DNA from: Veillonellaceae bacterium
Lineage (GTDB): Bacteria > Bacillota > Negativicutes > JAAYSF01
DNA: 64,000 bases
Direction of reading: 5' to 3'
Assembly (NCBI GenBank): GCA_012523975.1
Contig: JAAYSF010000085.1
Location: 1 to 64,000, forward strand
Every line of letters starts with the position of its first letter. Position 1 is the first letter of the stretch. The translations under genes and the position numbers were made by a program. Under the pieces are notes generated by a model. The model made no database searches. It saw only the letters and a list, made by a program, of their open reading frames with translations, and was not told the origin of the DNA. Shown one piece after another: positions 11,422-36,959 of this stretch.

Positions 11422-11448
11422 GATAGTTCTTCCTCTCCAATTTTAATA

Positions 11449-12207: not shown

Positions 12208-12210
12208 CTC

Positions 12211-13591: not shown

Positions 13592-13644
13592 AAAAAAGGC
13601 CAAGTTTCAATAAGAAACTTTGGCCTTCAGTTTTTCTGATCAGC
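13592..13644 (-). promoter_or_regulatory. Cysteine-gene leader RNA motif, copy A, with terminator
   Basis: Transcribed minus: GCUGAU, then CAG-AAAAA-CUG (3-bp hairpin), then AAGGCCAAAG, which is also the left arm of a terminator hairpin closed by CUUUGGCC-like pairing and a run of six T. The same layout precedes cysK and follows the O-acetylhomoserine sulfhydrylase gene. It likely controls read-through into the cysteine transporter operon; the sensed signal is unknown. Confidence 0.65.
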
Positions 13645-13666
13645 ACACTTTATGTAACTGTATTAA

Positions 13667-13696
13667 AGAATACAACACTTAGCATAAGAGTGTCAA
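13667..13696 (-). promoter_or_regulatory. Sigma-A promoter of cysteine transporter operon
   Basis: Minus strand TTGACA, 18-bp spacer, TATTCT, placed just upstream of the leader motif. Confidence 0.7.
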
Positions 13697-13707
13697 GCAG
13701 TATTTTC

Positions 13708-14667
13708 TCAGAAGTCTGGCAAACTTGCAAATACTTTTCTTAGCATTTCCTCAACCCCGGCCGGATTGGACTTGGCATTCTCGAGACGTGCGGCATATAG
13801 GTACTGAATAATGTTTTGCGGCTCCTCCGGCCCCGCTTCATGCCAAGGCGACAGTCTTAGATATTTCCAATAGACTTGCTTTCTCTCGTCAGGACACCAG
13901 CGCTGCCACGGTTTACATGATCCTACATAATGGACAATTACCGAGCTTTCTTCGATTGTTCCGTCGCCCTTAGCACAGTCGATTGTTGTATTGAAACAGT
14001 CATTAAGCGGAGCTATCTGTCCCTCCAGCACTACTGCTATGGCATCTTGTTCTAACCATACTATTTTATCTGGATAAGTTATCATGAATTCAATAATCCG
14101 TCTCGGTATATCCTGTTGGCGCCACGCCGGCAAATTTATAAGCATTACACCGGAATTCAAGTATTGACCTTTAGTAAGTCCCAGACGCAATGCCTGATCC
14201 TCAAAGGCATCAGTAAGTTTTGCGGCTGCTGGAGCGTTTCCTATCGGTGTAGACCAGAGAGAGGTAATATCACCGCAGCAGATTAAATCAGCATCTAAAT
14301 ATATTACCTTTTCTAAAAACTGCGGAAGTACGTAAGGAAGCATTAACCGATAGTACCCCGCCTTTGAAATATGCGGCATAGTCTTTAGACTGTCAAACAG
14401 CTTAGGGAAAGTTACTTTAAATAGCTGGAGTGGTTGCTGGTAGATGTCTGAGAGTTTCTTGAGTTTGTCAAAATCAGCCTCAGACATAGTGTCGTACATT
14501 ATATAAAAAGTAAAATTGACCTTAGGATTATTCACAATAATCGACGTAATTGCTACTCCCATATGCTGGACATAATTGGAATCAACCGCAAAAGCAATAT
14601 GTACCTCATCTTGACGCTGCGGCAGTAAATAGTCTAGTCTAACATCAAAACTCAACATCTCGCTCAT
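13708..14667 (-). CDS. Family 8 glycosyltransferase (LPS glucosyl/galactosyltransferase type)
   Basis: 319 residues. GT8 features: IAFAVDSNYVQHMGVAITSI at the nucleotide-sugar binding start, FTFYIMYD, KVIYLDADLICCGDI (the DxD metal site in YLDADL), LNSGVMLINL and HYVGSCKPW near the end. This family adds glucose or galactose from UDP donors to lipopolysaccharide cores or proteins. Start ATG 14667 with GAAGGTGGGAG upstream. It is transcribed opposite to the neighbouring glycosyltransferase run, so it is probably a separate unit. Confidence 0.88.
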   Translation of the reverse strand: MSEMLSFDVRLDYLLPQRQDEVHIAFAVDSNYVQHMGVAITSIIVNNPKVNFTFYIMYDTMSEADFDKLKKLSDIYQQPLQLFKVTFPKLFDSLKTMPHISKAGYYRLMLPYVLPQFLEKVIYLDADLICCGDITSLWSTPIGNAPAAAKLTDAFEDQALRLGLTKGQYLNSGVMLINLPAWRQQDIPRRIIEFMITYPDKIVWLEQDAIAVVLEGQIAPLNDCFNTTIDCAKGDGTIEESSVIVHYVGSCKPWQRWCPDERKQVYWKYLRLSPWHEAGPEEPQNIIQYLYAARLENAKSNPAGVEEMLRKVFASLPDF

Positions 14668-14689
14668 TCTCCCACCTTCTATACCGTAC

Positions 14690-14800
14690 GCTGTAAGACT
14701 CCTTTCTTCTTAGCGGGAGTTGTCAGCGTCTAAATCCCTGAATAAATTTGACTAGCTTCAGGTGGAGTTAAAATCTCCATCTAAAGCTTAGTCAAACTTT
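14690..14800 (+). repeat. Dispersed palindromic repeat, copy R2
   Basis: Same order as R1: TGTAAGACTCC, a hairpin ending AGCGGGAGT, then CTAAATCCCTGAATAAATTTGACTAG-like sequence, then TTCAGGTGGAG-TTAAAA-TCTCCATCT. It lies in the gap 14668-14932 between divergent genes. It is diverged from R1, which indicates an old insertion. Confidence 0.6.
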
Positions 14801-14932
14801 ATCTTGTGACACCTTAGCTTATGATGCATAAACGGCAAATGTTACTCCTCAATGATACGACTAACTATCACCATCAATTATGCTGCTGAATAGGCTAAAG
14901 TAGTGACTGTGAACTAAAGCAGGGGGATTAAA

Positions 14933-15745
14933 ATGGAGAGTGCTGATCAAACAAAGGATCTTATTATGGGCATGGTTATGAATTATGACTGGAATATGAT
15001 AGAACCATTTTTTGTGTCACTTCGAAAATCTGGCTTTAGCGGCGACGTGGTTATCTTCGTTTCAAATACCACTGATAACGTCCAACAAAAAATCCAGGAA
15101 TATGGTGTTACCGTTGTGCCTTTTCAAAGGATTGGCCTCGAGCAAATTATCAGTCCTAATGACTATCGTTATTATCTGTACCTTATGTACTTACAGCAAA
15201 ATAAAGATAAATACAGGTTCGTCTTACTAACCGACGTACGTGACGTAATCTTCCAGGCAGCGCCATTCCCCTGGTATCTTCCAACGGACAAAATATCGGT
15301 TGCCGTTGAATCAAAGCGAAAATCGATTTGGGACGATGTATGCAACACTAGGTGGATATTAGCTAAGTTTGGATCCCATATATTCCAAGCTATCTGCGGC
15401 TTTCCAATTATCTGCTCAGGAACAACGATCGCCCCTGTGGATTTAATGTGCAGTTATCTGGATAAAATGGTTACCTGTATCTTCTTACAGGGCGGTTATT
15501 TTCAATTAATTGACCAAGGCGTTCATAATTATCTTCTATACACAAACCAAGTCACGCCGGCCGCTTTTGCAGATAACAGCGCCGGAATCTTTCTAACGCT
15601 TGCTCTTGAAGACCTAGATCAAATTACGATTAACCCGCAAAACAAGATAGTAACTCAGAATAATCCTGTTGCAGCCATCGTCCATCAATATGACCGACAT
15701 AAAGACCTGATAGAGTTCGTCAATAGTTATTACCGCGAAAAGTAA
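14933..15745 (+). CDS. Putative GT-A fold glycosyltransferase
   Basis: 270 residues; ATG after GGGGGATTAAA. The start GMVMNYDWNMIEPFFVSLRK and the central FVLLTDVRDVIFQ (an acidic DxR-D motif where GT-A enzymes bind metal) with LIDQGVHNYLLY later match the layout of nucleotide-sugar transferases. I cannot assign a CAZy family. First of four plus-strand transferase genes in tight succession (14933-18532), so it is likely in one operon making a surface glycan. Confidence 0.7.
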   Translation: MESADQTKDLIMGMVMNYDWNMIEPFFVSLRKSGFSGDVVIFVSNTTDNVQQKIQEYGVTVVPFQRIGLEQIISPNDYRYYLYLMYLQQNKDKYRFVLLTDVRDVIFQAAPFPWYLPTDKISVAVESKRKSIWDDVCNTRWILAKFGSHIFQAICGFPIICSGTTIAPVDLMCSYLDKMVTCIFLQGGYFQLIDQGVHNYLLYTNQVTPAAFADNSAGIFLTLALEDLDQITINPQNKIVTQNNPVAAIVHQYDRHKDLIEFVNSYYREK

Positions 15746-15766
15746 CTGACAATCGAGGTGATCTGG

Positions 15767-16567
15767 ATGAACGATTATGCCTTTTTTATAATGCACTACA
15801 AAAAGAATGTTGATAGACGCAACTATATCTTTGATAACTTTGTAACTAACGATAAGCTGATTTATTGGATTACTGACTTTGACCGAGAACAAATCTGCCA
15901 TTCGCTAAACAATATCTATCAGTTTAATGAAGATAATTGGTACGAAATACTAAGGCCGCAGCTTGCAATTTTAATTGCTCACCGGTTAGGCATCGACCCG
16001 CAGTATCAAAATACACCCTGGTCCTACTTAATTGAAGGCGCTGAAGAATATGTCAAAAACAGTCAAATACCCAAAGTAATGTGCGACTTTCCCCAATATA
16101 GGCCGCGCAACTTAAGAATATTTGAGATAAGCATCCTTCTTAAGCATCGCGCCGCATATGAAAAAATAGTTGCTAATAATTATAAGTTTGGAATTATTTT
16201 AGAAGATGATTTTATTTTAAAAGACACTTCGATTACGGAATTAGAAACTTTACTCAGCAATACTCCGGCCGACTGGGATTTCATCGATATAGCCGGCGGG
16301 GCGGGGCTTACGCCTCGCGAGCACGATCCTGAAGTCATTCCCGGTTTATTCTCAATTCAGCCACCCCGTACCCGTACGGCCTGCGGCTATCTAATTAGCA
16401 ATAGGTTCTGCCGAGAAATAATTAATCTCAATACCCCGCCTACCGCTCCTTGCGACTGGGAATTAACCTATTTTATGCAACGTTTTCATGCTAAAGCCTT
16501 CTGGCTAATGCCGACGATAATAATCCACGGCTCGGAAACAAAAGCTTATCAGTCAAATAACAATTAA
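15767..16567 (+). CDS. Family 25 (LPS-type) glycosyltransferase
   Basis: ATG 15767 follows GAGGTGATCTGG; the upstream ATC at 15758 is not needed. 266 residues. ISILLKHRAAYEKIVANNYKFGIILEDDFIL is the GT25 signature (EDD metal site), and GYLISNRFCREII with PCDWELTYFMQ fits the C-terminal part. GT25 enzymes add galactose or glucose to lipo-oligosaccharide or to hydroxylysine. Acceptor here unknown; 22 bp after the previous gene. Confidence 0.85.
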   Translation: MNDYAFFIMHYKKNVDRRNYIFDNFVTNDKLIYWITDFDREQICHSLNNIYQFNEDNWYEILRPQLAILIAHRLGIDPQYQNTPWSYLIEGAEEYVKNSQIPKVMCDFPQYRPRNLRIFEISILLKHRAAYEKIVANNYKFGIILEDDFILKDTSITELETLLSNTPADWDFIDIAGGAGLTPREHDPEVIPGLFSIQPPRTRTACGYLISNRFCREIINLNTPPTAPCDWELTYFMQRFHAKAFWLMPTIIIHGSETKAYQSNNN

Positions 16568-16588
16568 CGAGTAGAATGAGGTGTTTCC

Positions 16589-17677
16589 ATGAGCTCAGTC
16601 TTTCTGCAGAACGTAAATCGTACACACTACAAAAGAAACTGCCTGTTAAAATATATCACGCTACCATTTCACAGTCCTCCGCTTTATCATCGCCATCAAA
16701 ATATGTGGCAGGTGCCGGAGATAGCCAGAATAATTGGCCATTACGACTATAATGTGGACGTAATTAATTATGATGACCAGCAAACCAAGCTTGGAAAAAA
16801 GTATGAGTTGCTGATTGATATTTACCCGCAAAACAACAAGGTATATCAAAACAACTTAGCTTCAAACTGCATAAAGGTACTTTACAGCACCGGCGCCGGA
16901 CCTGATTGGCAGAACACACAGCAACGCGCTCGTGTCAGTGCGTTAAATGCCAGACGCCATGCCCGTCTGCGCCCAAAATCAATTGTCCAGCCATTTGGTC
17001 CCGAAATCGCCTCATTTGACGCTATGTTTCTGATTGGCAACGAGTTCACCCGAAGCACCTACGATAATTTACCAATCAATAAAATCTATATGATAAAAAA
17101 TTCCGCCTATCTTTTCCCTGCTTGCGAGCTAAATAAAAAGACACCTAACACCTTCTTGTATATGGCCACCTATCCTCAAGCTTTAAAAGGACTGGACTTA
17201 TTGTTGGAGGTCTTTGGACGCAATCAGAATATCAGTTTAGTAATTGCCGGTCAGTACGAGGCCGAAAAAGATTTCTGCGCTATCTATAGCCGTGAGCTTT
17301 ATCAGTGTCCTAACATTCTGCCGGTAGGGGTAATTGATGTAACTAGCAATTTATTTGAAAAGATTCGTCAGATTGCAAGTTTCTTTGTCCTGCCCTCCTG
17401 TTCTGAAGGCATGTCAGGCAGCGTACTAACCGCCATGTCGGCTGGACTCATTCCAATCGTGAGCCGCGCATGCGGCTTTAGTGATGATGAAGTTTTCCAT
17501 TTTCAAGACTGTAGTATAAATTGTATCAAAGATACCCTTACAGCCTTTGCTAAAAAACCCCTCAATTGGGTGAAAAAAGAATCCTTGCAGGCAGTAGAAA
17601 CTGTCCATTCCCGTTACACACCAAACCACTTTTCTCAATCTTTTTATACCGCCCTGCAGGGTCTATTGGGAGGGTAA
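16589..17677 (+). CDS. GT-B fold glycosyltransferase (family 4 type)
   Basis: 362 residues, ATG after GAGGTGTTTCC. The C-terminal half has FLYMATYPQALKGLDLLLEVF, LVIAGQYE, ILPVGVIDV and FFVLPSCSEGMSGSVLTAMSAGLIPIVS, the donor-binding E-x7-E region of GT4 enzymes. The N-terminal half is atypical. It precedes the GT2 gene by 3 bp and so is co-transcribed with it. Confidence 0.8.
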   Translation: MSSVFLQNVNRTHYKRNCLLKYITLPFHSPPLYHRHQNMWQVPEIARIIGHYDYNVDVINYDDQQTKLGKKYELLIDIYPQNNKVYQNNLASNCIKVLYSTGAGPDWQNTQQRARVSALNARRHARLRPKSIVQPFGPEIASFDAMFLIGNEFTRSTYDNLPINKIYMIKNSAYLFPACELNKKTPNTFLYMATYPQALKGLDLLLEVFGRNQNISLVIAGQYEAEKDFCAIYSRELYQCPNILPVGVIDVTSNLFEKIRQIASFFVLPSCSEGMSGSVLTAMSAGLIPIVSRACGFSDDEVFHFQDCSINCIKDTLTAFAKKPLNWVKKESLQAVETVHSRYTPNHFSQSFYTALQGLLGG

Positions 17678-17680
17678 TGC

Positions 17681-18532
17681 ATGAATAAGCCTATCTCAGT
17701 GATAGTCCATACCCTAAATGAAGAAAATAACATTGGCAACTGCCTAGAAAGCGTTAAGTGGGCAGATGAAATAATCGTAGTAGATATGTACAGTGACGAC
17801 AAAACAGTTGAGATTGCCCGGAAGTATACTGACAAAATCCTAATGCATGAGCGCTGCCGTTATGTCGAACCGGCTCGCCAGTGGGCTGTTGAACAAGCTT
17901 CTCACGAATGGGTGCTTGTTATTGACGCCGACGAGCTTGTCCCAATTAAAACACGCGACTTGCTGCGAACAATTGTCAATAGAGATATGTACGATGTTGT
18001 TATAATTCCGAGGGTTAATTATTTGTTCGGACAATTAATGAAAGGCAGTCGGCGCGGCGCGGACGAAGATCGGCAGTGCCGGTTCTTTAAAAAGAGCTTT
18101 ATAACCTATACACCTAAGATTCACTCTTTCCCCCAAATCCGCCCTGACGCCCAGATTGGCTGGTTGTCCGGGGAAGATCAGGCACTGATTCATTTTAATT
18201 ACGTTGATATTGAACAATTTATTGAGAGATTAAACTGTTATACAACGATAGAGGCCGAAACGGCTCACTTATCCGGAAGAACCTTTAATCTTGAAAACGA
18301 CTTCAGAGAAAGTATGAAACAAATCCAAGACATAGCTATCAGCGAAGAAGGGTTCATGAAAGACGGTATATATGGTCTAGGCGTCGCTGTACTTATGGCA
18401 ATGTATCGCTTTTCGATTGCGCTTAAACTAAAACTGATAGAAGATTATAACAGTATGAGCCCCAGAGATGTTATTCGCAGCAAATATCAAAGTATCGCCG
18501 ACGATATTATCAGCCAATATCACGAAAGCTGA
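17681..18532 (+). CDS. Family 2 glycosyltransferase (WaaE-like)
   Basis: 283 residues. ISVIVHTLNEENNIGNCLESV, EIIVVDMYSDDKTVEIARKY and WVLVIDADELVP are classic GT2; HERCRYVEPARQWA is typical of the WaaE/KdtX subgroup that adds beta-glucose to LPS cores. The C-terminal YDSI-like tail is helical. ATG preceded by GGGAGGGTAATGC. Last of the transferase run. Confidence 0.87.
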   Translation: MNKPISVIVHTLNEENNIGNCLESVKWADEIIVVDMYSDDKTVEIARKYTDKILMHERCRYVEPARQWAVEQASHEWVLVIDADELVPIKTRDLLRTIVNRDMYDVVIIPRVNYLFGQLMKGSRRGADEDRQCRFFKKSFITYTPKIHSFPQIRPDAQIGWLSGEDQALIHFNYVDIEQFIERLNCYTTIEAETAHLSGRTFNLENDFRESMKQIQDIAISEEGFMKDGIYGLGVAVLMAMYRFSIALKLKLIEDYNSMSPRDVIRSKYQSIADDIISQYHES

Positions 18533-18592
18533 ATTCATATGACAAACTAATTACTTGATTATATGAGCTTACCGACAGGAGGCGATTTTTGC

Positions 18593-18898
18593 GTGTTTAG
18601 AGATTGCTGCAATTTTTTTAAAAATATGCTCTATGAGAATGGCGTTCCCAGTTTGACACGGGTTCTTAGCTTGATTGCCTTCGCCGCATTCTTGTTATGT
18701 TCCGCATACCTAATGGTCAAAGGTCAAGTCTGGCCGCACTATGATACCTTCGCATATATCACCGGCGGCGGCGGTACCACGGCACAGCTTTTTAATAAAT
18801 TTGTCAACAGCAAGTACAACTCTCATCTCGGCAATTCACCCGATAAAGCTAATGCGGAAAGGCCCATTGCTGTTAAGAATACTGCTGACACTAAATAG
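18593..18898 (+). CDS. Small membrane protein, unknown
   Basis: Start chosen as GTG 18593 because GGAGG at 18578-18582 lies before it; an in-frame ATG at 18563 would lie upstream of that site. About 101 residues: Cys-rich N-terminus, one clear membrane helix (VLSLIAFAAFLLCSAYLMV) and possibly a weak second segment around the Gly-rich TGGGGTTAQLFNKF, then a polar tail. It loosely recalls phage holin-associated proteins, but no family was recognised. Confidence 0.6.
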   Translation: MFRDCCNFFKNMLYENGVPSLTRVLSLIAFAAFLLCSAYLMVKGQVWPHYDTFAYITGGGGTTAQLFNKFVNSKYNSHLGNSPDKANAERPIAVKNTADTK

Positions 18899-18908
18899 TT
18901 TCAAATTT

Positions 18909-18950
18909 AAACCCCCGATGACGCGGTCTGCGAAAATCGGGGGTTAAGTT
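18909..18950. terminator. Terminator between convergent genes
   Basis: AACCCCCGA / TCGGGGGTT stem with an 18-nt loop between the stop codons at 18898 and 18958. Confidence 0.7.
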
Positions 18951-18957
18951 TAATAAC

Positions 18958-19893
18958 CTAAATCGTATCCTTAAAGTAATTAATTGTTGCCTTTAATCCG
19001 TCATCCAGTGTTATCCGCGGCTGCCAGCCAAGTTTACTCATTGCCAACGTGATATCAGGCTGCCGCTGGCGCGGGTCATCGGCAGGCAGCTTTTGAAATA
19101 TCAATTTTGAATTAGATGCTGTTAAGGCCAAAACTTTTTCAGCCAGTTGTAAGATGGTAAATTCGCTTGGATTACCTAAATTTACCGGTCCGTTAAAACC
19201 TCTTTCGGTTTCCATCATAGCTATCAGACCGTCGACTAGATCATCGATATAGCAGAAAGACCTGGTCTGATTGCCGGTTCCATACACCGTAATATCTTGA
19301 TTTCTCAAAGCTTGCACGATAAAGTTGCTAACTACCCGGCCATCATTTGGGTCCATATTAGGTCCATAGGTATTAAAGATACGGACAACCTTAATATCTA
19401 AGCCAAATTCCCGTTGATAATCGAAACAAAGCGTTTCGGCGCAGCGCTTACTTTCATCATAACAGGCGCGCCTTCCGATTGGATTGACATTTCCCCAGTA
19501 ACTTTCCGGTTGAGGATGGACAAGCGGGTCACCATATACTTCCGAAGTTGATGTATGCAATATTTTGGCCCCATTGGCCTGCGCAAGTTCCAGCATGTTG
19601 TTAAGGCCAAAAACACTGGTTTTCAGGGTATTCAATGGATTTCTCTGATAATGCTCCGGGCTTGCCGGACATGCCAAGTTGTAAATTTGATCTACCGCGA
19701 GGTCTAGTGGTTCTGTAACATCATGTTCGATAAACTCAAAAAACGGGGTATTTAAGAGCTCAGCCACATTCGACTTGAATCCGGTATAAAGATTATCTAA
19801 ACATAGTACCTTATGGCCTTGTTTGACCAGACGTTTACACAGATGACTGCCAATAAAACCGGCTCCGCCTGTTACTAAAATCCGCTTAGACAT
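18958..19893 (-). CDS. UDP-glucuronate decarboxylase (UDP-xylose synthase)
   Basis: 311 residues from ATG 19893 (GGAGGGGC upstream; the track frame opens earlier). Extended SDR: NAD motif [10 protein letters not shown], substrate motifs [10 protein letters not shown] and [11 protein letters not shown] (catalytic Tyr/Lys), [18 protein letters not shown]. This pattern is typical of UXS, which converts UDP-glucuronate to UDP-xylose. The start overlaps the end of the UDP-glucose dehydrogenase gene by 8 bp, so the two consecutive steps are co-expressed and supply a pentose donor for the local transferases. Confidence 0.87.
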
Positions 19894-21220
19894 AATAGCC
19901 CCTCCCAACGCAAAAATACTCAAAGCCTAATTGAGCCATTTGCTCGGGGTCATATTGATTCCGTCCATCAAAAATAAGCGGCCGCCGCATACGGCGCTTC
20001 ATTTCTGCGAAGTCAGGCTGCTTAAATTGCTGCCACTCTGTCACTAACACTATGGCATCAGCACTATCCAAGGCTGCCATCATATTGCCGGCAAAGTCAA
20101 TATGCTCGGCACAGTCCGCGAGCATTTGCCGGGCTTGAGATGCTGCCTCAGGGTCGTAGGCTGAAATAGTTACTCCCATCTCGGTCAGCATTCTAATAAT
20201 CACAACAGACGGCGCTTCCCGCATATCATCAGTCTGCGGTTTGAAGGCCAACCCCCATACAGCAATCTTTTTTCCGGTTAATTCTCCCTTAAAATAGCGA
20301 CAAATCATGTCTGCCAGATAACATTTCTGGCACTCATTAACATTTTCAACGGCACGGGCTATTTCCATTTCAATACCGTATCGCTGTCCGGTGGCAATAA
20401 GTTCTTTAACATCTTTAGGGAAACACGATCCACCATATCCGGCACCTGCATTAAGAAAATGCATACCGATACGACGGTCTGTCCCCATACCCTGCCGGAC
20501 ACTATTGATGTCTGCTCCAACCTTATCGCATAAACGGGCAATCTCGTTAATAAAACTAATCCGTGTTGCCAGCATAGCATTGGCTGCGTATTTGCTTATT
20601 TCAGCCGATTTTTCATCCATTAGCAAAATAGAATCTTTATCTTGAATAAACGGCAGATACAACTGTTTTACACAGTCAGCCGCCGCTTTATTACTTGCGC
20701 CAATGACTACCCGATCCGGCCGCATAAAATCCTCTACTGCGCCGCCTTCCTTTAAAAACTCAGGATTTGAAACAACATCAAACTGAATTTCAACACCCCG
20801 CAAGGCTAATTCATCACTGACAATCAGCCGCACCGCCTGTGCAGTACCGACCGGCACCGTCGACTTATTAACGATAACAATTGGGTTGACGATTAGCTGC
20901 CCGATTTCGCGGGCAGCTGCGTATACCTGCGATAAATCTACCTTACCATCTTTCCCTGTTGGTGTACCGACTGTTATAAACGCAACAGTGGCATCCTCTA
21001 GCGCCCTCTCTAAGCTAGTTGTAAAATACAGCCGCCCTGCCTTAGTATTTTTATCAACAATCTCTGCAAGGCCTGGTTCAAAAATTGGCAATTTGCCTTG
21101 GTTTAGGCTATCAATCTTGGCTTGATCCTTGTCAACACACCAAACAGTATTACCTGTTTCAGCCAGGCATGCACCTGTTACCAAACCGACATAACCCGTT
21201 CCTGCAACAGCGATTTTCAA
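19886..21220 (-). CDS. ugd: UDP-glucose 6-dehydrogenase
   Basis: Start TTG 21220 with GGTGGTG just upstream; residues before it in the open frame are unlikely. 444 residues: [17 protein letters not shown] Rossmann motif, [33 protein letters not shown], and the catalytic Cys in [12 protein letters not shown]. It oxidises UDP-glucose to UDP-glucuronate with two NAD. It feeds the decarboxylase encoded directly downstream. Confidence 0.93.
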
Positions 21221-21401
21221 GGTCACCACCCCTATCTGGCTCATGCTAAATCATTATCATCATTTTCATGCTATTCACCAGATAGTTAAAGGGTTACAGT
21301 ACTTGTACACAGGCCTTTTTAAAAATTAAAACTCAGCTGTAACATAAGTCTGCGACAATTCATATATTACACTAAAAGTTTGCAAAAGGAGGGTAATTAG
21401 A

Positions 21402-21629
21402 GTGGTCGATGACCGAAAGTCTGGTTGCTGTGACTGTTGTAACGACATTCGCGATATTGTTGCCTGCGTTTGCAGCCTTGATAAAGAATTTGAATGCGTC
21501 GAAGAAGCGTTAGGTCATTGTGATAACCAAACTAAAGCTAAGGTGCTTACTTGTGTAATTCTGCGCGAAATTAAAGAGCTTGATCACAAGCTCAATCGCA
21601 TTATACGCCATTTAAAATGCCCGCAGTAA
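21402..21629 (+). CDS. Small Cys-rich protein, unknown
   Basis: 75 residues from GTG 21402 with AGGAGGGTAATTAGA before it. Cys cluster near the start (GCCDCC, then ACVCS, FEC), more Cys at positions about 50 and 73, and a helical charged C-terminus. Good ribosome site and a terminator after it support a real gene. No family recognised; metal binding or a disulfide-rich spore protein are both possible. Confidence 0.65.
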   Translation: MVDDRKSGCCDCCNDIRDIVACVCSLDKEFECVEEALGHCDNQTKAKVLTCVILREIKELDHKLNRIIRHLKCPQ

Positions 21630-21650
21630 ATTAATTAGACTTCAATAGAA

Positions 21651-21693
21651 AATAAGCCCCACAGCGTGTACTCCTTCTACTGCGGGGCTTATT
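21651..21693 (+). terminator. Terminator of the small Cys-rich gene
   Basis: AATAAGCCCC-ACAG / CTG-CGGGGCTTATT with a T-rich end. Confidence 0.75.
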
Positions 21694-21722
21694 AGTATGC
21701 TAAAAATCTATAGAGGTGAATT

Positions 21723-22601
21723 ATGGCCGATTTTACCTTAACAACGCCGGTAGCATTTTTTATTTTTAACCGTCCTGATACAACTGCTCAAGTTTTTGAA
21801 CAGATACGTCAGGCTAAACCGCAGAAGCTATTAGTCGTTGCCGACGGCCCCCGAACAACACACGCTGCGGATATCGACAAATGCGCCGCGACCAGGTCAA
21901 TCATCGATACAATTGACTGGGACTGTCAAGTATTAACTAATTACTCCGACATAAATCTGGGCTGTAAGGTTCGTATGTCTTCAGGTCTTGATTGGGTCTT
22001 CAATACAGTCGATCAAGCCATTATCCTTGAACACGACACCTTACCCCACCCGTCCTTCTTCCGCTTTTGTCAGGAACTGCTGACACAATATCACGACGAT
22101 AACCGAGTCATGAACATCTCGGGCTGTAATTTTCAATTCGGCAACCAACGAACCAATTACAGTTATTATTTCTCACGTTGTGTACATTGCTGGGGCTGGG
22201 CATCTTGGCGTCGAGCTTGGCAATATTATGACATCACTATGTCGCTGTGGCCCGAGGTTTCTCAAGGTGATTTACTTCAATCGCTATTAGTTCATGACCA
22301 GGCGCTGGCCTACTGGCACAAAGTGTTCGATGTCACCTATCACGGCTATATCAACACTTGGGACTATCAATGGGTTTTTAACTGTTGGAGTCAAAATGGG
22401 CTTTGTATATTACCTAATATCAACTTAATTTCAAACATTGGCTTTAATGCTGAAGGAACACACACAACCAACACTTCGTCCCGGGTTGCCAATTTGCCGA
22501 CTGGGCAAATGGATTTTCCGCTCCGGCACCCACCTATTATGCTGCCGGACGTCGAGGCCGATAAATTTACACAGCAGCTCTATAATTCCGGAGAGATGTA
22601 A
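21723..22601 (+). CDS. GT2/GT-A glycosyltransferase
   Basis: 292 residues; ATG after TAGAGGTGAATT. PVAFFIFNRPDTTAQVFEQI, LLVVADGPR, IILEHDTLPHPSFFRFCQEL and HCWGWASWRRAWQYYD follow a pattern common in bacterial GT2-like sugar transferases (often labelled hemolytic-protein HlpA-like). The EHD acidic motif probably binds the metal-nucleotide. It is 18 bp before the next glycosyltransferase and belongs to a three-gene operon ending in gmd. Confidence 0.82.
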   Translation: MADFTLTTPVAFFIFNRPDTTAQVFEQIRQAKPQKLLVVADGPRTTHAADIDKCAATRSIIDTIDWDCQVLTNYSDINLGCKVRMSSGLDWVFNTVDQAIILEHDTLPHPSFFRFCQELLTQYHDDNRVMNISGCNFQFGNQRTNYSYYFSRCVHCWGWASWRRAWQYYDITMSLWPEVSQGDLLQSLLVHDQALAYWHKVFDVTYHGYINTWDYQWVFNCWSQNGLCILPNINLISNIGFNAEGTHTTNTSSRVANLPTGQMDFPLRHPPIMLPDVEADKFTQQLYNSGEM

Positions 22602-22619
22602 AATGACGGAGGATTTATA

Positions 22620-24566
22620 ATGATTAGGGATTTGCGCGTTGGTATCCCAATTGTCGGCAGTAAAGGCTGGCTAGGCGGCGTTTCACATATGGAGCTCCAC
22701 GTTAAAGCCGTCACTGCGCTGCCTAAAGATGAGCGCCCGCAGCTCTTTCTTGTTATTACTGACGACTCGTTTGAAAGTTACCAATTTTACCGTTCTTGGG
22801 TCACTTTGTTTGATAGCGTGATCTATATAGGATCTGACTGTGAAAAGGTTTCAGCTATAACAGAGTTGCCGGTTATCCACTGTAAAAGCTGGGATGAGCT
22901 TTTTACCATAATTGACTTCTTTTTTCCGGTTAGTTTTAATGTCCTTCCAAATCACTGTGCGGCTTCATGGATCCACGATTTCCAGCATAAACACCTGCCA
23001 GATTTTTTCCCTGCTCATGACATTGCCTTGCGCGACGATCTTTGTCAGCGTATTGCCGATCAAGCTAAACTGGTTTTCTGCAGCAGCCGCGCGGTCGAAA
23101 GTGATTTTAAACGGTTTTATCCTGATTCCAAGGCTTTGACGTATGTATTGGCGCTGCGCATAAAGCCCGAACCTGAATGGTATGAAGGTGATCCAATTGC
23201 AGTCCAAAATAAGTATGGCTTACCGGATGAGTTTGTACTTTGCTCAAATCAATTTTGGGTACATAAGAATCACCGTCTGTTGTTCGCGGCTATTGCCCAA
23301 CTGCGTCAAACAGGTCAAGATGTTCATCTGGCCTGTACAGGTTTGCCGAATGATTTCCGCTGCCCGGACTATATGGACCAACTTAAAGCATATATCGAAG
23401 AACTGGGGATTGCTGACCTTATCCACATTTTAGGGCAAATTCCGCGCCAGGATCAGATTCAGCTTATCCGCCGCTCACTGTTTGTTGTGCAGCCCTCACT
23501 GTTCGAGGGGCTTAGTCTTATCGTGCAGGAATGCCGGGCCTTAGGGAAAACAATCGTCTTGTCGGATCTGGATGTTCATATAGAACACGAATATGGAGTT
23601 TACTTTAAGCGAGCAGATAGCAAAGACCTTGCCGCTAAAATGCGTCAACTTGTTTATCACGCTAAACCGGGCCCAGATACTATGCGGGAAATCGAGGCCA
23701 GGCTGCAAGCTGAAGGGCTGACAATCGGGTATGGAAAATCTTTCTGTAAAATGGTCGAGCAAGCCCAAGCATTATTCAACACTAACAGACCGCCTTCGAC
23801 TGACTCACCAGTTCTTATTGCCACATCACTTGCACTATCGGCTGATATGTCCAGTCAACGGCATGCTATCGATAGTTGGCTGCAAGCAGGGTTTGCCGTA
23901 GTCTCATTAAACAGGCCCGAAGATATTTCGGCACTTAAGCGTGAGTTTCCCGATATTAGCTTTGCTGTTTTAAGCCATAACGGTGGCAACAATTATAACG
24001 CGCGACAAGTTTATCTAAATGATTTGCTAAATTACCTACGACAGAGCAATACCGCAGTTTGCGGCATAGTAGAGCCTGATATTTGCCTTTATGGAAGTAA
24101 TTTAGTGGCCGCCATTGCTAAAGAAGCTGTTAACTGCCTGATATATCAAGAAAAAACTAGCATCGAAGGTCTTCGCTGCTTTGAGGGAACGGCCTTTCCC
24201 GGACCAGGCTGTATCTTTTTCGACCGTCAAATTTTGGCTTGCTATCCGAATGAGACGTTTAGTCTAGACCAGCCCTGGTGGGATTACTGGGCCATTCTTA
24301 TTCCGCTTATCAATAAAATCCCGATTAAACATGTGACAACACCATTTGCTTACCACGTCACTCATAGTCAGCATTATGATATTGATATTATGATATCACT
24401 CGGCAGCATTCTGGCTAAATATGCCCCGCCCCCCTTTGAACTGTCTGGCCAGACTTTAGCAAAATACCAGACAATTATTGCCCAAATCATCAGCAACCAC
24501 TCGCTTGACGTTGCCATCTATAATCTTAACGTCAACGATATAGCTTACCGCGAGGTGAAGGCATGA
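22620..24566 (+). CDS. GT4 glycosyltransferase fused to the C-terminal domain shared with the GT41-type enzyme
   Basis: 648 residues; ATG after GGAGGATTTATA. Residues about 1-390 are a GT-B enzyme: [49 protein letters not shown], and [21 protein letters not shown] (GT4 E-x7-E). Residues about 397-648 begin [20 protein letters not shown] and contain [27 protein letters not shown] and [12 protein letters not shown]. The GT41-type protein at 2094-4907 has the same domain (IATSLSLENVNIQ, GIINPDICL, WLDYWAVIVPLM). The domain may be a second sugar-binding or transferase unit; unknown. Confidence 0.85.
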
Positions 24567-25648
24567 AAAAAGCATTAATTACCGGAATAACCGGGCAGGA
24601 TGGTGCCTATCTGGCTGAATTCTTACTTAATAAAGGGTATGAAGTGCACGGTATAAAACGACGTTCATCGCTGTTCAACACCCAGCGAATTGATCATCTT
24701 TACCGGGATACCCACGAAGAAAATGTACGTTTTATTCTGCACTACGGCGATTTAACTGATTGTGCTAATCTTATCCGCATAATGCAAGAAGTACAGCCTG
24801 ATGAGGTTTATAATTTAGCTGCTCAAAGCCATGTTAAAGTATCTTTTGAAACCCCCGAGTATACTGCTAATAGTGATGCGGTTGGCACTTTACGGCTGCT
24901 TGAGGCTATCCGCATTCTGGATTTAACCGAAAAAACAAAATTCTACCAGGCTTCAACCAGTGAATTATTCGGTAAAGTACAGGAAGTACCGCAACGAGAA
25001 ACTACTCCCTTTTATCCGCGCAGCCCATATGCGGCAGCCAAATTATATTCGTATTGGATAACAGTTAACTACCGCGAGGCCTATAATATATTTGCCTGTA
25101 ACGGCATCCTTTTTAACCACGAATCACCGCTGAGAGGCGAAACCTTTGTCACGCGTAAAATTACCAGAGGCGTCGCCCGCATCAAACTTGGGTTACAGGA
25201 TGTATTCTACCTTGGCAACCTGAACGCAAAACGTGACTGGGGCTATGCCGGTGATTACGTTGAGGCCATGTGGCTAATGCTGCAGCAGGAGCAGCCAGAT
25301 GATTTTGTCATTGCTACTGGGGAAACTCATTCAGTCCGCGAGTTTGTAGAGCTAGCCTTTAAGAATGTCGGGATAAATATCATTTGGCGTGGCACCGGCA
25401 TCGACGAACATGGTGTTGATGAAGCAACAGGCAAAATCGTGGTTAGAGTCGACCCGCGCTACTTCCGTCCTACCGAAGTTGATTTATTGTTGGGAGACGC
25501 TGCCAAAGCCAAAGCAAAACTTGGCTGGCAGCCTAAAGTCACCTTTCCGGAGCTAGTCGCCATGATGGTCAAAGCGGACACCGACCAGGCAAAATGCGAT
25601 TTACTCTGCCAAAGCAATGGATTTCGAGTCCCTCAGTATGAAGAATAA
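24563..25648 (+). CDS. gmd: GDP-mannose 4,6-dehydratase
   Basis: 361 residues; ATGA overlap with the previous gene. [21 protein letters not shown] (NADP motif), [30 protein letters not shown], catalytic [12 protein letters not shown] and [17 protein letters not shown] are diagnostic of GMD. It makes GDP-4-keto-6-deoxymannose, precursor of fucose, rhamnose and perosamine-type donors. No following reductase or aminotransferase is in the window, so the final sugar is unknown. Confidence 0.94.
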
Positions 25649-25654
25649 ACGGAA

Positions 25655-25690
25655 TAACAAAGCTGACCTGTTTGGGAGGTCAGCTTTGTT
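25655..25690. terminator. Bidirectional terminator
   Basis: AACAAAGCTGACCT / AGGTCAGCTTTGTT stem with a 7-nt loop between gmd and the convergent cupin gene; its right arm overlaps the cupin stop. Confidence 0.85.
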
Positions 25691-26102
25691 ACTCTTGCAG
25701 TATTATGGGGTAATCTACGTCTACTTGGTCCCGTTCTTTTTTTAGCACCGGACATTCATCGCAGTAGGCAGCAATCGCAACCCAATTCTCAGTACCGACT
25801 ACTTTGGCAGGATGCGGTGCATCGGTGGGAATCAAAAAACAGGTACCAGGTTCGAGCACATATTCATTATCGCTGATAGTTAGTATCGCCTTACCCTTAA
25901 TAGTATAGACAATCTCATCACCCAAATGAATATGCGGCGTGCCTACTGATCCAGGCGGGACATCCAAGAACGCCATCTTTAAGAAGTTGCTGCAAGTGGT
26001 CCTTGGCGAAAAAAAAACCTGCCGAAAGATTTGGCCAAACTGTTCCTGCTTTAAGATTTCGAGCTTTTTAATCTCGGGAACTTTTTTAATCTCCAATTCC
26101 AA
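25689..26102 (-). CDS. Cupin-domain protein
   Basis: About 135 residues. Cupin motif 1 GTPHIHLGDEIVYTIKGKA and motif 2 PGTCFLIPTDAPHPAKVVG supply His/Glu metal ligands. C-terminal tail has CDECPV. The start is a TTG: 26102 is only two bases from AGGAGG, while TTG 26096 has a spacing of eight and is more likely. Small-molecule binding or isomerase role not inferable. Confidence 0.8.
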   Translation of the reverse strand: MELEIKKVPEIKKLEILKQEQFGQIFRQVFFSPRTTCSNFLKMAFLDVPPGSVGTPHIHLGDEIVYTIKGKAILTISDNEYVLEPGTCFLIPTDAPHPAKVVGTENWVAIAAYCDECPVLKKERDQVDVDYPIILQE

Positions 26103-26198
26103 TACCTCCTATTGGCCTACCGAATTCCTATTAGAAGGTATGAAAAACGGCCTGGTGCTATGCCTCATGCCAGACTGAGCAGACTGGTAAAATATTAC

Positions 26199-27722
26199 TT
26201 AGCAGCAGTTTTTATTGGGAAGCATTACATAAAAAGTAGTCCCTTTGAGGCTGGAATCCACAGTAATCCGTCCATGGTGCCGTTCGACTATGCTATAGCA
26301 TACCGACAGTCCTAGCCCCGTTCCTTGCGGCTTAGTCGTGATAAAAGGCGTACCGAGTTTATCTAAAACAGCGGCATCTATTCCCGACCCTTCATCCTGA
26401 ATAGCTAAAATTACGTCCTGATTGTCTAAGTAGGTCTGAATTGTTAGCTTGCCCCCGCTTTCCATAGCTTCCAGTCCGTTGCGTACCAGGTTTAATATAA
26501 GCTGGCGTATCTCCCTTTCATCTAGGGTTAATCTCGGAATATCGCCTGCCAAATCCAGCTTAATTTCCTTATTATTCATCATAGCATCGGCTTGAATTAT
26601 TGGATATAGAGAATTAATTACGTCATTTAGATTTATACAGGCAGTTTGGATTGTTCTGTTACGCGCCAATGACAAAAATTGCGTAATTATATGATTTATC
26701 CGATCCAACTCTTCAATTACTATCTCAATATAACCGTGATCTCTTTCATTGGTTAGCCTTTTTCCCAGCAGTTGCAGAAACCCCCGCGCCGCCGTCATGG
26801 GATTGCGTATCTCATGAGCCACACTGGCAGCCATCTGACCAACTAAATTAAGGCTTTCCAGCTTAGACAGCTCTTTTTCAAACGCCCGCTGTTCAGTTAT
26901 GTCATTCATCAGCAAAAGGATAAGGTCGCGGCCATTAAAATTAACAACCTCGTTCGACAGCAAAACCTCGCGCCTTTCCCCCCGCTTAGTCAGATAATAG
27001 GTCTCCAAATTAGAAATACCTGCTCGTTCAGCGATAGTTTTTTCTAATACTGCCGGAGCACATTCATAACATAGCTTTAGGTCGCCTATTGTACGACCAA
27101 TCACCTCATATTTTGACCAGCCCGTATTACTTAAGAACTTGTTATTGACATCGATAAACCGTCCATCTTTGTCATGAATGCCCATCATAATCGGGCTTGC
27201 GCTAAACGCCATTGCAAAGCGCTTTTCAGATGCGCGCAGGGCCATTTCGATTTGCTGCCGCTGTAAATTCTCAGCTTTTAGACTATTATTTGCAGCCTCT
27301 AGCTCGCAGGTTCGCTCCTTTACCAACTCTTCCAGCTGATTTTTATAGGTTTGCAGTTCGTCTCTAGCTTTTTGCAATTCGAGATTTTTAATCTTAAGTT
27401 TAGTTATATCATAAAAAAAGACATACAGATTCCCAGCATTGGGAAACATGCGTAACTCAAACCAACTGGCTAACGGTTCATAGTAATACTCAAATTCAGC
27501 TTCTTTATCAGCTTGTACTGCCTGCTTATACATTTGACGCAAATCTTTAACCATAGTTGTAGGAAAAACCTCTGAAAAGCTCTTGCCGATAACTTCTGTT
27601 TTATGCTTAGCCAAAAACGCCAGAGCTTTTTTATTAATATATGTTAAACATAAGTTGCTATCCATAGCATAAAAGCCATCGGAAAGATTTTCAAGAATAC
27701 AGGCTAGCACATCAGGTTTCAT
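26199..27722 (-). CDS. PAS-domain sensor histidine kinase (sporulation-kinase-like)
   Basis: ATG 27722 follows TGGAGGTTCAAC; the frame upstream is not needed. 507 residues, no membrane segment: PAS 1 (about 1-110, ILENLSDGFYAMDSNL), a coiled-coil linker, PAS 2 (about 165-280), then HisKA with VAHEIRNPMTAARGFLQLL (phospho-His) and HATPase with LNLVRNGLEAM, IQDEGSGID and GTGLGLSVCYSIVERHHG. Soluble PAS kinases of this build feed the Spo0A phosphorelay in spore formers; the link here is inference. No response regulator is adjacent. Confidence 0.9.
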   Translation of the reverse strand: MKPDVLACILENLSDGFYAMDSNLCLTYINKKALAFLAKHKTEVIGKSFSEVFPTTMVKDLRQMYKQAVQADKEAEFEYYYEPLASWFELRMFPNAGNLYVFFYDITKLKIKNLELQKARDELQTYKNQLEELVKERTCELEAANNSLKAENLQRQQIEMALRASEKRFAMAFSASPIMMGIHDKDGRFIDVNNKFLSNTGWSKYEVIGRTIGDLKLCYECAPAVLEKTIAERAGISNLETYYLTKRGERREVLLSNEVVNFNGRDLILLLMNDITEQRAFEKELSKLESLNLVGQMAASVAHEIRNPMTAARGFLQLLGKRLTNERDHGYIEIVIEELDRINHIITQFLSLARNRTIQTACINLNDVINSLYPIIQADAMMNNKEIKLDLAGDIPRLTLDEREIRQLILNLVRNGLEAMESGGKLTIQTYLDNQDVILAIQDEGSGIDAAVLDKLGTPFITTKPQGTGLGLSVCYSIVERHHGRITVDSSLKGTTFYVMLPNKNCC

Positions 27723-27796
27723 GTTGAACCTCCATAGTGAGTTAGGTATATATTTTTCCACAAAACAGCTTTTTACCTGCAAGAATTACCCCTTAA

Positions 27797-27826
27797 ATAA
27801 AAAACCAGGCGCCGTAAAGCGCCCAG
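27797..27826 (-). terminator. Terminator after cysK
   Basis: Minus strand TGGGCGC-TTTAC-GGCGCCTGG followed by six T. Confidence 0.75.
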
Positions 27827-27855
27827 TTAACCTGCCAGCAAAGTAATTTATACCC

Positions 27856-28791
27856 CTAAGAATCTTGAAACAAAGCTGTCGACAAATATCTTTCACCGGT
27901 ATCCGGCAAGAGGACGACAATGTTTTTACCCTTATTTTCAGGCCGTTTAGCAAGTTCAGTAGCTGTATGCAAAGCCGCGCCGCTTGATATTCCAATTAAG
28001 AGTCCTTCGTATTTTGCAACCTCTTTGGCCGCAGCAAAGGCTTCTTCGTTTTGGACCTTGGCAATGCTGTCAATGATAGCGGTATTTAGGACGCTAGGTA
28101 CAAAACCAGCGCCAATTCCCTGGATTTTATGCGGCCCAGGCTTTCCACCCGAGATAACAGGAGAGTCAAATGGTTCAACCGCGATAATTTTCACTTCAGG
28201 CTTTCTTGCTTTCAAAACTTCACCAACGCCGGTAATCGTACCGCCAGTACCAACACCGGCAACAAAGATATCAACTTGACCATCAGTATCGCGCCAGATT
28301 TCCTCAGCCGTTGTTTTCTTATGCATTGCCGGGTTTGCAGGGTTCTCAAACTGCTGCGGCATAAAGGAATTGGGATTTTGAGCAACAAGTTCTTCGGCCC
28401 TCTTAATTGCGCCTTTCATGCCTTCTGCACCAGGAGTAAGTACAAGCTCGGCCCCCAAGGCTTTAAGGAGATTACGGCGTTCAACACTCATTGTATCAGG
28501 CATTGTTAGAATAAGTCTATAACCGCGGGCAGCGGCAACAAAGGCCAGGCCAACCCCGGTGTTTCCACTGGTAGGCTCGACAATTAATGTATCCTTGTTG
28601 ATAAGTCCACGTTCTTCGGCATTTTGAATCATAGCATAACCAACCCGGTCTTTTACACTGCCAAGCGGATTAAAATATTCCAGTTTAGCGATAATTTTTG
28701 CCTCAAGCTCTTTGTTTTGTCCATAATTAGACAGTTCCAGCAATGGAGTATTACCGATAAGCTCAGTAAGATTTTTGGCAATTTTGGTCAT
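27856..28791 (-). CDS. cysK: Cysteine synthase A (O-acetylserine sulfhydrylase)
   Basis: 311 residues; ATG after AGGAGGTAAAAAAACA. PLP lysine in [33 protein letters not shown] loop, [13 protein letters not shown] phosphate loop, [11 protein letters not shown] and [13 protein letters not shown]. It makes cysteine from O-acetylserine and sulfide. Preceded by its own promoter and the leader motif shared with the cysteine transporter operon, so probably regulated by the same cysteine-related signal. Confidence 0.95.
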
Positions 28792-28886
28792 TGTTTTTTT
28801 ACCTCCTAAATTTAGTATTAGTATTTTAAAAACCAGACGTAATCATTCGAATCATATTTATACTAAGGCTATTTGTAAATAATTGA

Positions 28887-28950
28887 AAAAAATAAAAGGC
28901 TAAGTTAATCCGAGAACGGATAACTTAGCCTTTGGTTCTTCCAATCAGCT
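28887..28950 (-). promoter_or_regulatory. Cysteine-gene leader RNA motif, copy B, with terminator
   Basis: Transcribed minus: AGCUGAU, UGG-AAGAA-CCA hairpin, AAGGCUAAG, which starts a terminator stem (AAGGCUAAGUUAUCCG... / ...AACUUAGCCUU) with a T-rich tail. Compared with copy A the 3-bp hairpin changed on both sides (CAG/CUG to UGG/CCA), i.e. compensatory change. Confidence 0.65.
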
Positions 28951-28956
28951 AATTAT

Positions 28957-28986
28957 TTTATATCATAATCTTTACAAATATGTCAA
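28957..28986 (-). promoter_or_regulatory. Sigma-A promoter of cysK
   Basis: Minus strand TTGACA, 18-bp spacer, TATAAA, immediately upstream of leader motif copy B. Confidence 0.7.
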
Positions 28987-28996
28987 TAGCTATCTA

Positions 28997-29599
28997 TCAG
29001 TCTTTTAAAATTTCATTCATACTGCCGCTGCGATAGCCGGCTAAATCTAGTGTTACAAAGGTAAAACCAAGTTTTTTAGAAACTGGCTTATCCGCGCGGC
29101 ATTAGCAGGCTTAGCAAGAACTTGAACATCTGGTGACGAAACATCAATTCTGGCAAGATCGCCATAATGCCTGACCCGCATTCATCGACGGCTTTTATCC
29201 CCGGACGATAGTCTGACGTATCGTCAGCATTTGAACCTTCGAGCACCCATTTAAAACTATGTTCTTGAGCCCAGTTTTTTAGGGCTCCAAACCGTTCTTT
29301 TTTACAAAAATAGCATCTATTTGCGGTATTCTTTACAAAATCGTCACAGTTTAGCTCGCTAATATTGAGCAAAATATGCTTTATGCCTATTTCCTGGGCA
29401 ATACTAATTGCTTCCTGCTCCTCATGCTTTGATAAGGTTTCCGAGTAAGCAGTTATTGCCATAGCCCTATCTCCCAGCACCTTATATGCCGCTGCAGCCA
29501 AGCATGTGCTGTCGACACCGCCCGAAAACCCAATGACAGCGCTTTCAAGCTTTCAAGCAAAACTGACAAATTCTTTAATTTTTCTTGGGTTTGTTTCAT
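28997..29599 (-). pseudogene. Decayed larE-like ATP-dependent sulfur transferase gene
   Basis: Start ATG 29599 with AAGGAGAG before it encodes KQTQEKLKNLSVLLESLK. Near 29541-29548 one A is missing, so the PP-loop part (SAVIGFSGGVDSTCLAAAAYKVLGD) is in the next frame. That frame runs to about DYRPGIKAVDE; then the frame changes again to MRVRHYGDLARIDVSS...SQFLKNLGFTFVTLDLAGYRSGSMNEILKD and TGA at 28997. About 65-70 residues normally present between these parts in LarE are missing. One frameshift plus an internal deletion means no functional product. LarE-type proteins donate sulfur, so it fits the sulfur island. Confidence 0.85.
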
Positions 29600-29658
29600 A
29601 AAACTCTCCTTACCAGCCCCGATATGCATACGTTAATTGGCTTGAATGGTCGTCTTAC

Positions 29659-29713
29659 GCCAAGACTCCCCCCTCAACGGGGTTAGTCTTGGCCTTCAGT
29701 TTACTGATCAGCC
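29659..29713 (-). promoter_or_regulatory. Cysteine-gene leader RNA motif, copy C
   Basis: Starts 5 bases after the O-acetylhomoserine sulfhydrylase stop: GGCUGAU, CAG-UAAA-CUG hairpin, AAGGCCAAGAC, then a long stem closed by GUCUUGGC around a C/G-rich arm. No T run follows, so the terminator may be degenerate, consistent with the decayed larE-like gene downstream. Confidence 0.6.
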
Positions 29714-29717
29714 CATC

Positions 29718-31037
<1,320 letters not shown>

Positions 31038-36948: not shown

Positions 36949-36959
36949 AAAATCACCAA

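Follow-up and report, generated by a model that had tools for sequence, protein, structure and literature searches.

The window analysed here, a stretch of 64,000 nucleotides (nt) from Veillonellaceae bacterium (assembly GCA_012523975.1, contig JAAYSF010000085.1, positions 1 to 64,000), carries three copies of a short RNA hairpin that shares a strand with a terminator. By sequence comparison, this element is well supported as a putative transcription-attenuation RNA switch before sulfur-scavenging genes. From the company it keeps across genomes, we propose, with a probability of about 0.7, that the small protein DUF2292 (YezD/OscA) would bind the hairpin and let transcription through under sulfur starvation. 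An earlier sequence-only reading had noticed the three copies; its observation is confirmed and its interpretation is partly supported, as told beside the results concerned. Numbers with G, L and f refer to genomes, loci and families.

Structure of the element and its overlap with a terminator

The element is a hairpin of 33-35 nt, N3-GCU-GA-UYRG-loop-CYRA-A-GGC-N3. The lower helix pairs N3-G-C-U with G-G-C-N3, the U being paired with the G beside the internal loop. The internal loop (5' strand GA, 3' strand A) is nearly invariant, and the upper helix (UYRG/CYRA) closes a short loop. The 3' half of the hairpin (AAGGCYAA...) doubles as the 5' arm of a terminator; since this strand is common to both structures, the antiterminator and the terminator are mutually exclusive. 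All three of the copies previously noticed are present on the minus strand, and nowhere else does the 2.47-Mb genome match the core pattern (a reversed control pattern gave 0). They are listed here with E-values from covariance model R1, of which all three are themselves part.

13620-13644, minus strand: copy 1, antiterminator hairpin core GCUGAUCAG-AAAAA-CUGAAGGCCAA (model match 13617-13650; R1 E = 6.9e-9)
13592-13627, minus strand: copy 1, intrinsic terminator, whose 5' arm is the hairpin's AAGGCCAAAG, then UUUUUU
28925-28949, minus strand: copy 2, antiterminator hairpin core GCUGAUUGG-AAGAA-CCAAAGGCUAA (model match 28922-28955; R1 E = 1.2e-7)
28894-28932, minus strand: copy 2, intrinsic terminator, with AAGGCUAAG common to terminator and hairpin
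29689-29712, minus strand: copy 3, hairpin core GCUGAUCAG-UAAA-CUGAAGGCCAA (model match 29686-29718; R1 E = 3.2e-8)
29659-29693, minus strand: copy 3, strong stem without a U-run, with GGCCAAGACU common to stem and hairpin

Copies 1 and 2 have a complete intrinsic terminator, with folding energies of -16.7 kcal/mol for the terminator part versus -6.8 for the hairpin alone in copy 1, and -21.5 versus -9.2 in copy 2. In copy 1, the base before GCUGAU and the C/U of AAGGCYAA form a mismatch. The terminator-like stem that had been claimed for every copy is a full terminator in these two; copy 3 has the strong stem and, lacking the U-run, is not a normal intrinsic terminator. Its stem has probably decayed.

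Hits were counted as distinct by the motif together with the 40 nt after it; 136 of the 151 distinct hits carry a terminator on the 3' half of the motif. Of these 136, 103 pair the C/U of AAGGCYAA with the base just ahead of GCUGAU, and 134 pair it with the terminator 3' arm, a figure that is partly built in, the 3' arms having been selected for at least 8 of 10 pairs. The alternative antiterminator hairpin suggested by the sequence-only reading is thus borne out. A descriptor of the motif with its terminator gave 162 hits in loci L043-L162, which were chosen for holding the motif, versus 4 in the reversed control; it is imperfect, finding only copy 2 in the window, plus a chance match at 58735, and missing a clear copy in L249. 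Promoter-like pairs lie within 60 nt before the motif in 118 of 139 copies versus 86 shuffled ones, and because so many shuffled copies have them too, the claim of a promoter was dropped.

No family of Rfam 15 (4227 families) matches the motif at gathering score. Permissive scans of copies 1-3 returned matches all far under gathering score, none of them to S-adenosylmethionine (SAM) families, and the T-box model matched nowhere in the window at gathering score. The element was rightly said to be neither an S-box nor a T-box.

Covariation

The small hairpin had been described as a covarying helix of 3 base pairs (bp). Its covariation proved general in the 136 terminator-bearing hits, and an additional U-A pair brings the helix to 4 bp. 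The YRG/CYR types were CAG/CUG (108), UAG/CUA (15), UGG/CCA (9), CGG/CCG (2) and UAG/CUG (2), with UGG and CGG under-sampled because the search pattern took only YAG/CTR. Over 86 sequences, two-sided changes occurred at 6 of the 10 pairs, filling 48 cells versus 16.4 +/- 4.3 in shuffles and at most 11 in slid controls. With 41 sequences that included divergent forms, 8 of the 10 pairs changed on both sides, with 62 cells versus 19.1 +/- 5.4 in shuffles and at most 20 in slid controls. With two-sided changes above shuffles and no Rfam family, the phrase 'unrecognised covarying leader RNA' has stood up.

The most telling form is a re-paired variant in family f12, GAAC-UGA-CCAA-n5-UUGG-A-GGUUC, which also has a terminator and was included in the 41-sequence test. 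Other pairs make up its upper helix and the greater part of its lower helix, and C-U-GA...A-GG is kept. Over the 16 stretches L171-L186, a descriptor of this variant gave 11 hits in its true form and 0 in seven altered forms.

Distribution of the element

The motif is present in 3/3 genomes of the window's own family, own genome counted. Within the class, the plain pattern matched 52 of 300 genomes; three (G108, G109 and G202, at L035, L010 and L036) had the pattern only, without a terminator, and by eye resemble coding sequence, so that leaving them out gives 49. Model R1, whose E-values are rough, matched 75 of the 300 at E <= 0.01 and 63 at E <= 1e-4, with at least 23 matches in the richest genome. 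A strict pattern matched 3 of 398 genomes of the phylum, own genome again counted. Among the matches listed are Sporomusa, Pelosinus, Propionispora, Anaerospora, Heliobacterium, Fontibacillus and Paenibacillus, and also Clostridium luticellarii, a Clostridiaceae isolate and deltaproteobacterial metagenome-assembled genomes (MAGs; Candidatus Adiutrix and others). In Bacilli, the class of a Paenibacillus genome, model R2 matched 14 of 121 genomes at E <= 0.05, of which 13 were judged genuine by eye from the terminator; G712 was counted, being read on the other strand, and G766, without a terminator behind its match, was left out.

In the pattern search of f12, unpaired matches were removed by eye (G068, G146, G190, G194, G230 and G236, and single ones in G184 and G282), G030, G051 and G208 were retained with 3 of 4 upper pairs, and terminators were inspected for L171, L186, L220 and L222. 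Virus contigs gave 4 pattern matches, none with a terminator, which were taken as chance, as were the terminator-less matches in archaeal, acidobacterial, verrucomicrobial and other records (L045, L130, L143, L145, L152).

Genes behind the element

Behind each hit, the longest reading frame with its start in the next 500 nt was taken as the downstream gene. This gave a gene for 146 of the 151 hits, in 51 groups named from 20 representatives, several of them under curated cut-offs. The largest groups are cysK (20), MetN-like ATPase (9), cystine-type permease (8), PatB C-S lyase (8), DUF2292 (7), methylcobamide methyltransferase-like (7) and class-III aminotransferase (6), presumably of the taurine-pyruvate type, followed with 5 each by nitrogenase-like, SsuA-like, SsuC-like, metY and sulfate-binding protein. 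Smaller groups include sulfite/nitrite-reductase-like proteins, sulfopropanediol dehydratase and LarE; 29 frames stand single, some of them unlike sulfur genes (e.g. L041, L042, L058, L075).

Behind the Bacilli copies lie cysH (four loci), sulfate-binding protein, SsuA, SsuD and SsuE, uroporphyrinogen-III methyltransferase and a methionine-biosynthesis enzyme dependent on pyridoxal phosphate; the ten downstream proteins scanned were all above a curated cut-off. By eye only, a MarR-like gene (G796) and a threonine-synthase-like gene (G748) also follow the motif. In f12 the downstream genes are sulfate-binding protein, CysW and O-acetylhomoserine (OAH) sulfhydrylase, with one copy in L186 preceding an unnamed gene.

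The genes controlled thus appear to be mostly those of sulfur scavenging. The sequence-only reading had looked to further copies before sulfur genes in relatives, and many were found; its 'sensing cysteine status' is too narrow and unproven, as the regulon covers sulfur scavenging generally (sulfate, sulfonate and cystine-type transport, and sulfite reduction).

Three further kinds of gene were noted beside the motif. Nitrogenase-component-like proteins follow it in L119 (3266-4603), L050, L132 and L018, and perhaps serve reductive sulfur salvage. Two Heliobacterium copies (L049:266-1376 and L080:6061-7169) precede a URO-D-like protein without an obvious sulfur role. A DUF2325 protein of 95-98 amino acids (aa) recurs in 13 of 150 motif loci, partly directly behind the motif (L111:4299-4592, L108:2002-2034 and L255:7384 are examples).

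Co-occurrence with DUF2292

Small DUF2292 genes are recurrent neighbours, found in 23 of 150 motif loci. In a hand-picked set, DUF2292 was present in 36/37 motif genomes and 3/13 others. Among the 13, G014 is a motif genome by the plain pattern, and the three with DUF2292 carry a variant, with a terminator in G004 and G013 and as pattern only, with 3 of 4 upper pairs, in G030. For the class draw, the plain pattern gave DUF2292 in 48/49 motif genomes versus 57/251 others; the single motif genome without it, G142, is 58% complete.

Using R1 outside f12 at E <= 0.01, 60 genomes had both motif and DUF2292, 5 had the motif only (G022, G083, G173 and G203, at E 5e-4 to 6e-3 by score alone, and G142), 0 had DUF2292 only and 126 had neither. 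At E <= 1e-4 the counts were 56 with both, 1 with the motif only (G142), 4 with DUF2292 only (G079, G152, G179 and G212, with R1 E of 2e-4 to 2e-3 by score alone) and 130 with neither. Removing the seven genomes, contributing eight model rows, in which the motif had been found beside DUF2292 (G004, G033, G039, G077, G078, G121 and G275, of which G039 and G275 belong to f12) left 51, 1, 4 and 130 at this cut-off. Scanning next to the DUF2292 genes in G152 and G179 (L178, L182) with the full model found no motif. G079 is the only f4 genome with DUF2292 and the only one with an R1 match, a weak one by score alone. In f12, taking R1 at E <= 0.01 or the variant pattern, 27 genomes had both, 1 the motif only (G273), 18 DUF2292 only and 63 neither.

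In Bacilli, DUF2292 is present in 13/13 motif genomes versus 49/121 overall (hypergeometric p = 2.7e-6, or 2.6e-5 with the rejected G766 included; the genomes are related, so that these values overstate independence and are descriptive only). As a control, we counted SsuA above cut-off in the first 103 genomes, where it occurred in 36/50 R1 motif genomes and 10/53 others. DUF2292 agreed better with the motif in the same genomes (48/50 and 8/53).

Gene order of DUF2292 and the motif

In 11 genomes of Bacilli, a DUF2292 match is followed on its own strand, after 4-131 nt, by the motif and then by the downstream gene. In Cytobacillus spongiae it starts right after the stop codon of YezD and is followed by cysH, a transporter, sat, cysC and sulfite reductase. 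Four Bacilli loci (L235, L244, L249, L262) have the order SAM riboswitch, DUF2292, motif, cysH.

Neighbourhoods of 9-15 kb around 20 DUF2292 genes from motif-negative genomes (15 Bacilli and 5 f12, not chosen by motif) held the descriptor motif in 9/20 cases (7/15 and 2/5), and the reversed form in 0/20. The genes behind these motifs, some named by eye, were SsuA-like, SsuE-like, cysH, metY, DUF2325 or URO-D-like. DUF2292 loci of 3 kb held the motif in 5/6 cases for L243-L248 and in 2/8 for L163-L170, the window's locus included.

DUF2292 genes and protein

The window has two adjacent single-domain DUF2292 genes, whose A- and B-type domains are fused in many relatives.

36960-37121, minus strand: DUF2292 gene A, 53 aa, N-type domain, proposed RNA-binding antiterminator (PF10055, 60.3 bits, cut-off 22)
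36766-36966, minus strand: DUF2292 gene B, 66 aa, C-type domain with a GxxGDGI end (PF10055, 53.3 bits)

Both proteins score below the OscA equivalog NF033785 (35.6 and 34.1 versus 85 bits). An AlphaFold2 model of a fused DUF2292 protein has helix-strand-strand twice, with a mean predicted local distance difference test score (pLDDT) of 70 and a predicted template modelling score of 0.59. A search with one fused protein found no solved structure alike in sequence. Among the listed papers that name YezD or DUF2292, none has a title that concerns its function. OscA, which lies in a unit with sbp, has been described as a small protein whose function is unknown, and Pseudomonas corrugata becomes chromate-sensitive when it is inactivated; the passage on OscA in that paper mentions no RNA role (PMC2996968).

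Proposed mechanism and alternatives

Unaided, the more stable terminator would form by default and transcription would stop. Under sulfur starvation, DUF2292 would bind and hold the hairpin with its GA/A internal loop, acting as one domain (perhaps a dimer) in Bacilli and as two tandem domains in the window's class, which in the window come from two genes. RNA polymerase would then continue into cysK, metY, cysH, transport and sulfonate genes. Conservation lies in the antiterminator fold, so its binder should turn the genes on; this makes cysteine as the direct ligand the wrong direction, and a starvation signal or a protein the right one. With the DUF2292 gene placed after a SAM riboswitch and just ahead of the attenuator, as in the four Bacilli cysH loci, a fall in SAM would raise DUF2292, and this additional DUF2292 would open the next gate, the attenuator.

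Several findings weigh against DUF2292 as the binder. DUF2292 is present without the motif (E <= 0.01 plus variant pattern) in 18 of the 105 DUF2292 genomes of the class; of seven inspected locally, L265 and L268 had the motif, and L183, L184, L266, L267 and L269 had none. The descriptor motif is absent from 11 of the 20 neighbourhoods and from 6 of the 8 loci L163-L170. Conversely, a real, well-formed motif (L220) occurs in G273, a genome without a DUF2292 match, its partner being either lost or very diverged, and the deltaproteobacterial MAG G695 also has the motif and no DUF2292 match. DUF2292 itself sometimes lies behind the motif (7/146 downstream frames, and in Bacilli G721, G737, G748, G752 and G770, with two of the four DUF2292 matches of G748 so placed), so that the association could in part reflect membership of one regulon. 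Fold comparison of the model at pLDDT 70 found no known RNA-binding fold, with no Foldseek match at E <= 0.001; the best VIA-align match was an amino acid ligase (Z 4.0, root-mean-square deviation 3.0 over 54 residues). The covariation also has its weak side: pair types are no more numerous than expected by chance, their number being reached by 428/500 shuffles of the 86 sequences and 298/500 of the 41, the 8 of 10 two-sided pairs were equalled by 43/500 shuffles, and in the lower helix the three outer pairs fail to form in 19, 17 and 10 of the 41 sequences.

A very small riboswitch would have the same anatomy: the GA/A-loop hairpin would bind a starvation metabolite (O-acetylserine, O-acetylhomoserine or a relative), holding the antiterminator, with DUF2292 merely in the same regulon. 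The nearly invariant internal loop suits this, as do the Heliobacterium loci L049 and L080, where the motif-controlled gene has no recognisable adjacent regulator; against the latter, DUF2292 is present in Heliobacterium mobile too, where its locus holds a further motif copy in front of a cysK-like gene. For a natural aptamer, three near-fixed unpaired positions (GA and A) are a small number. Outside f12, moreover, DUF2292 is absent from 126/126 motif-negative genomes at E <= 0.01 and 130/134 at E <= 1e-4, and in the 11 Bacilli genomes it stands directly before the motif, not behind it. A riboswitch therefore seems unlikely to us. The sequence-only reading had allowed for either a small riboswitch or a protein-binding attenuator; the attenuator, and a protein-bound one, gain support, and the motif's co-occurrence and co-location with DUF2292 make the riboswitch less likely.

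The binder might instead be another protein, such as an antiterminator of co-antiterminator (CAT), ANTAR or NusG-like type, or DUF2325, with DUF2292 as a co-inherited starvation effector. The architecture is like that of known protein-bound antiterminators, and DUF2325 is found in 13/150 loci; co-occurrence of a candidate binder was counted for DUF2292 alone, which also weighs on the side of another protein. The remaining recurrent neighbour regulators are, by eye, DNA-binding or two-component (GntR-like in 5 loci, a LuxR-type response regulator in 4), and phyletic pattern and position suit DUF2292, so that we regard a different protein as quite unlikely. That the copies are ordinary intrinsic terminators, sharing sequence by chance and regulating nothing, is highly improbable. 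Such terminators are common in general and copy 3 is decayed, but the upstream strand is conserved, the alternative pairing covaries in both helices, the motif stands before sulfur genes in unrelated taxa, and the descriptor found far more hits than its reversed control in the motif-chosen loci.

With DUF2292 as the favoured binder, the wider claim is held a little less firmly: DUF2292 would probably represent a new family of very small RNA-binding antitermination proteins, forming with the hairpin a global sulfur-starvation regulon. Its range would take in Negativicutes-type bacteria, Bacilli, heliobacteria, Clostridiaceae and some deltaproteobacteria, and it would include the chaining to SAM riboswitches in Bacilli, by which one RNA switch can yield the protein that opens the next. 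If true, a widespread tiny protein family would gain a function, sulfur scavenging across large parts of the Gram-positive bacteria would gain a regulator, and antitermination would gain a new protein-RNA pair. It also makes an old question testable, that of termination-level control of the sulfonate and cysH operons in bacilli.

Relation to known systems

The LicT/SacY ribonucleic antiterminator (RAT) is a hairpin of ~30 nt with internal loop(s) that overlaps the 5' arm of a terminator, and in the bound state lets RNA polymerase pass; the binding is by a small CAT RNA-binding domain of ~55 aa, which acts as a dimer. Like the RAT, the motif is a short hairpin mutually exclusive with an intrinsic terminator. 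Unlike the RAT, it has another sequence, many copies per genome and a regulon of sulfur rather than sugar genes, and its proposed partner DUF2292 lacks the regulation domains of the phosphotransferase system. The SAM-I riboswitch (S-box, RF00162) likewise controls sulfur/methionine genes by termination in related organisms, but the motif has ~33 nt versus 108 and is unmatched by the RF00162 model. The proposed partner shares PF10055 and the link to sulfur with YezD/OscA, for which NF033785 is named 'sulfur starvation response protein OscA'.

In bacilli, a common unnamed attenuator has been reported before a sulfonate operon of the ATP-binding cassette (ABC) transporter type (Naville and Gautheret 2010, PMC2965389); the section on it gives neither a mechanism nor a partner. 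Compared by description only, it could be the same element. Apart from this attenuator, literature searches on this RNA, on YezD and on the leader returned no earlier description, most subscription journals lying outside the search.

Genes beside the copies in the window

10561-13534, minus strand: ABC operon downstream of copy 1, with two permeases, an ATPase and a substrate-binding protein
27856-28791, minus strand: cysK, cysteine synthase A, downstream of copy 2 (TIGR01139, 477.1 bits, cut-off 350.95)
29088-29610, minus strand: larE-like gene downstream of copy 3, frame-broken (longest piece 29088-29501)

The operon behind copy 1 would encode a polar-amino-acid/cystine-type transporter; its substrate is suggested by matches below cut-off, since in scans of the first permease and the binding protein every whole-protein model was under its curated cut-off. 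Copy 3 sits between metY and the larE-like gene, as had been stated; that gene, though, is frame-broken, scoring 120.1 bits against TIGR00268 (cut-off 150) and covering model positions 30-145 of 259. The gene and its U-run-less switch seem to be decaying together. The sole Rfam match in the window is a SAM-I riboswitch (RF00162; 32533-32633, minus strand; 87.3 bits), which precedes a homoserine acetyltransferase-like gene, named by eye.

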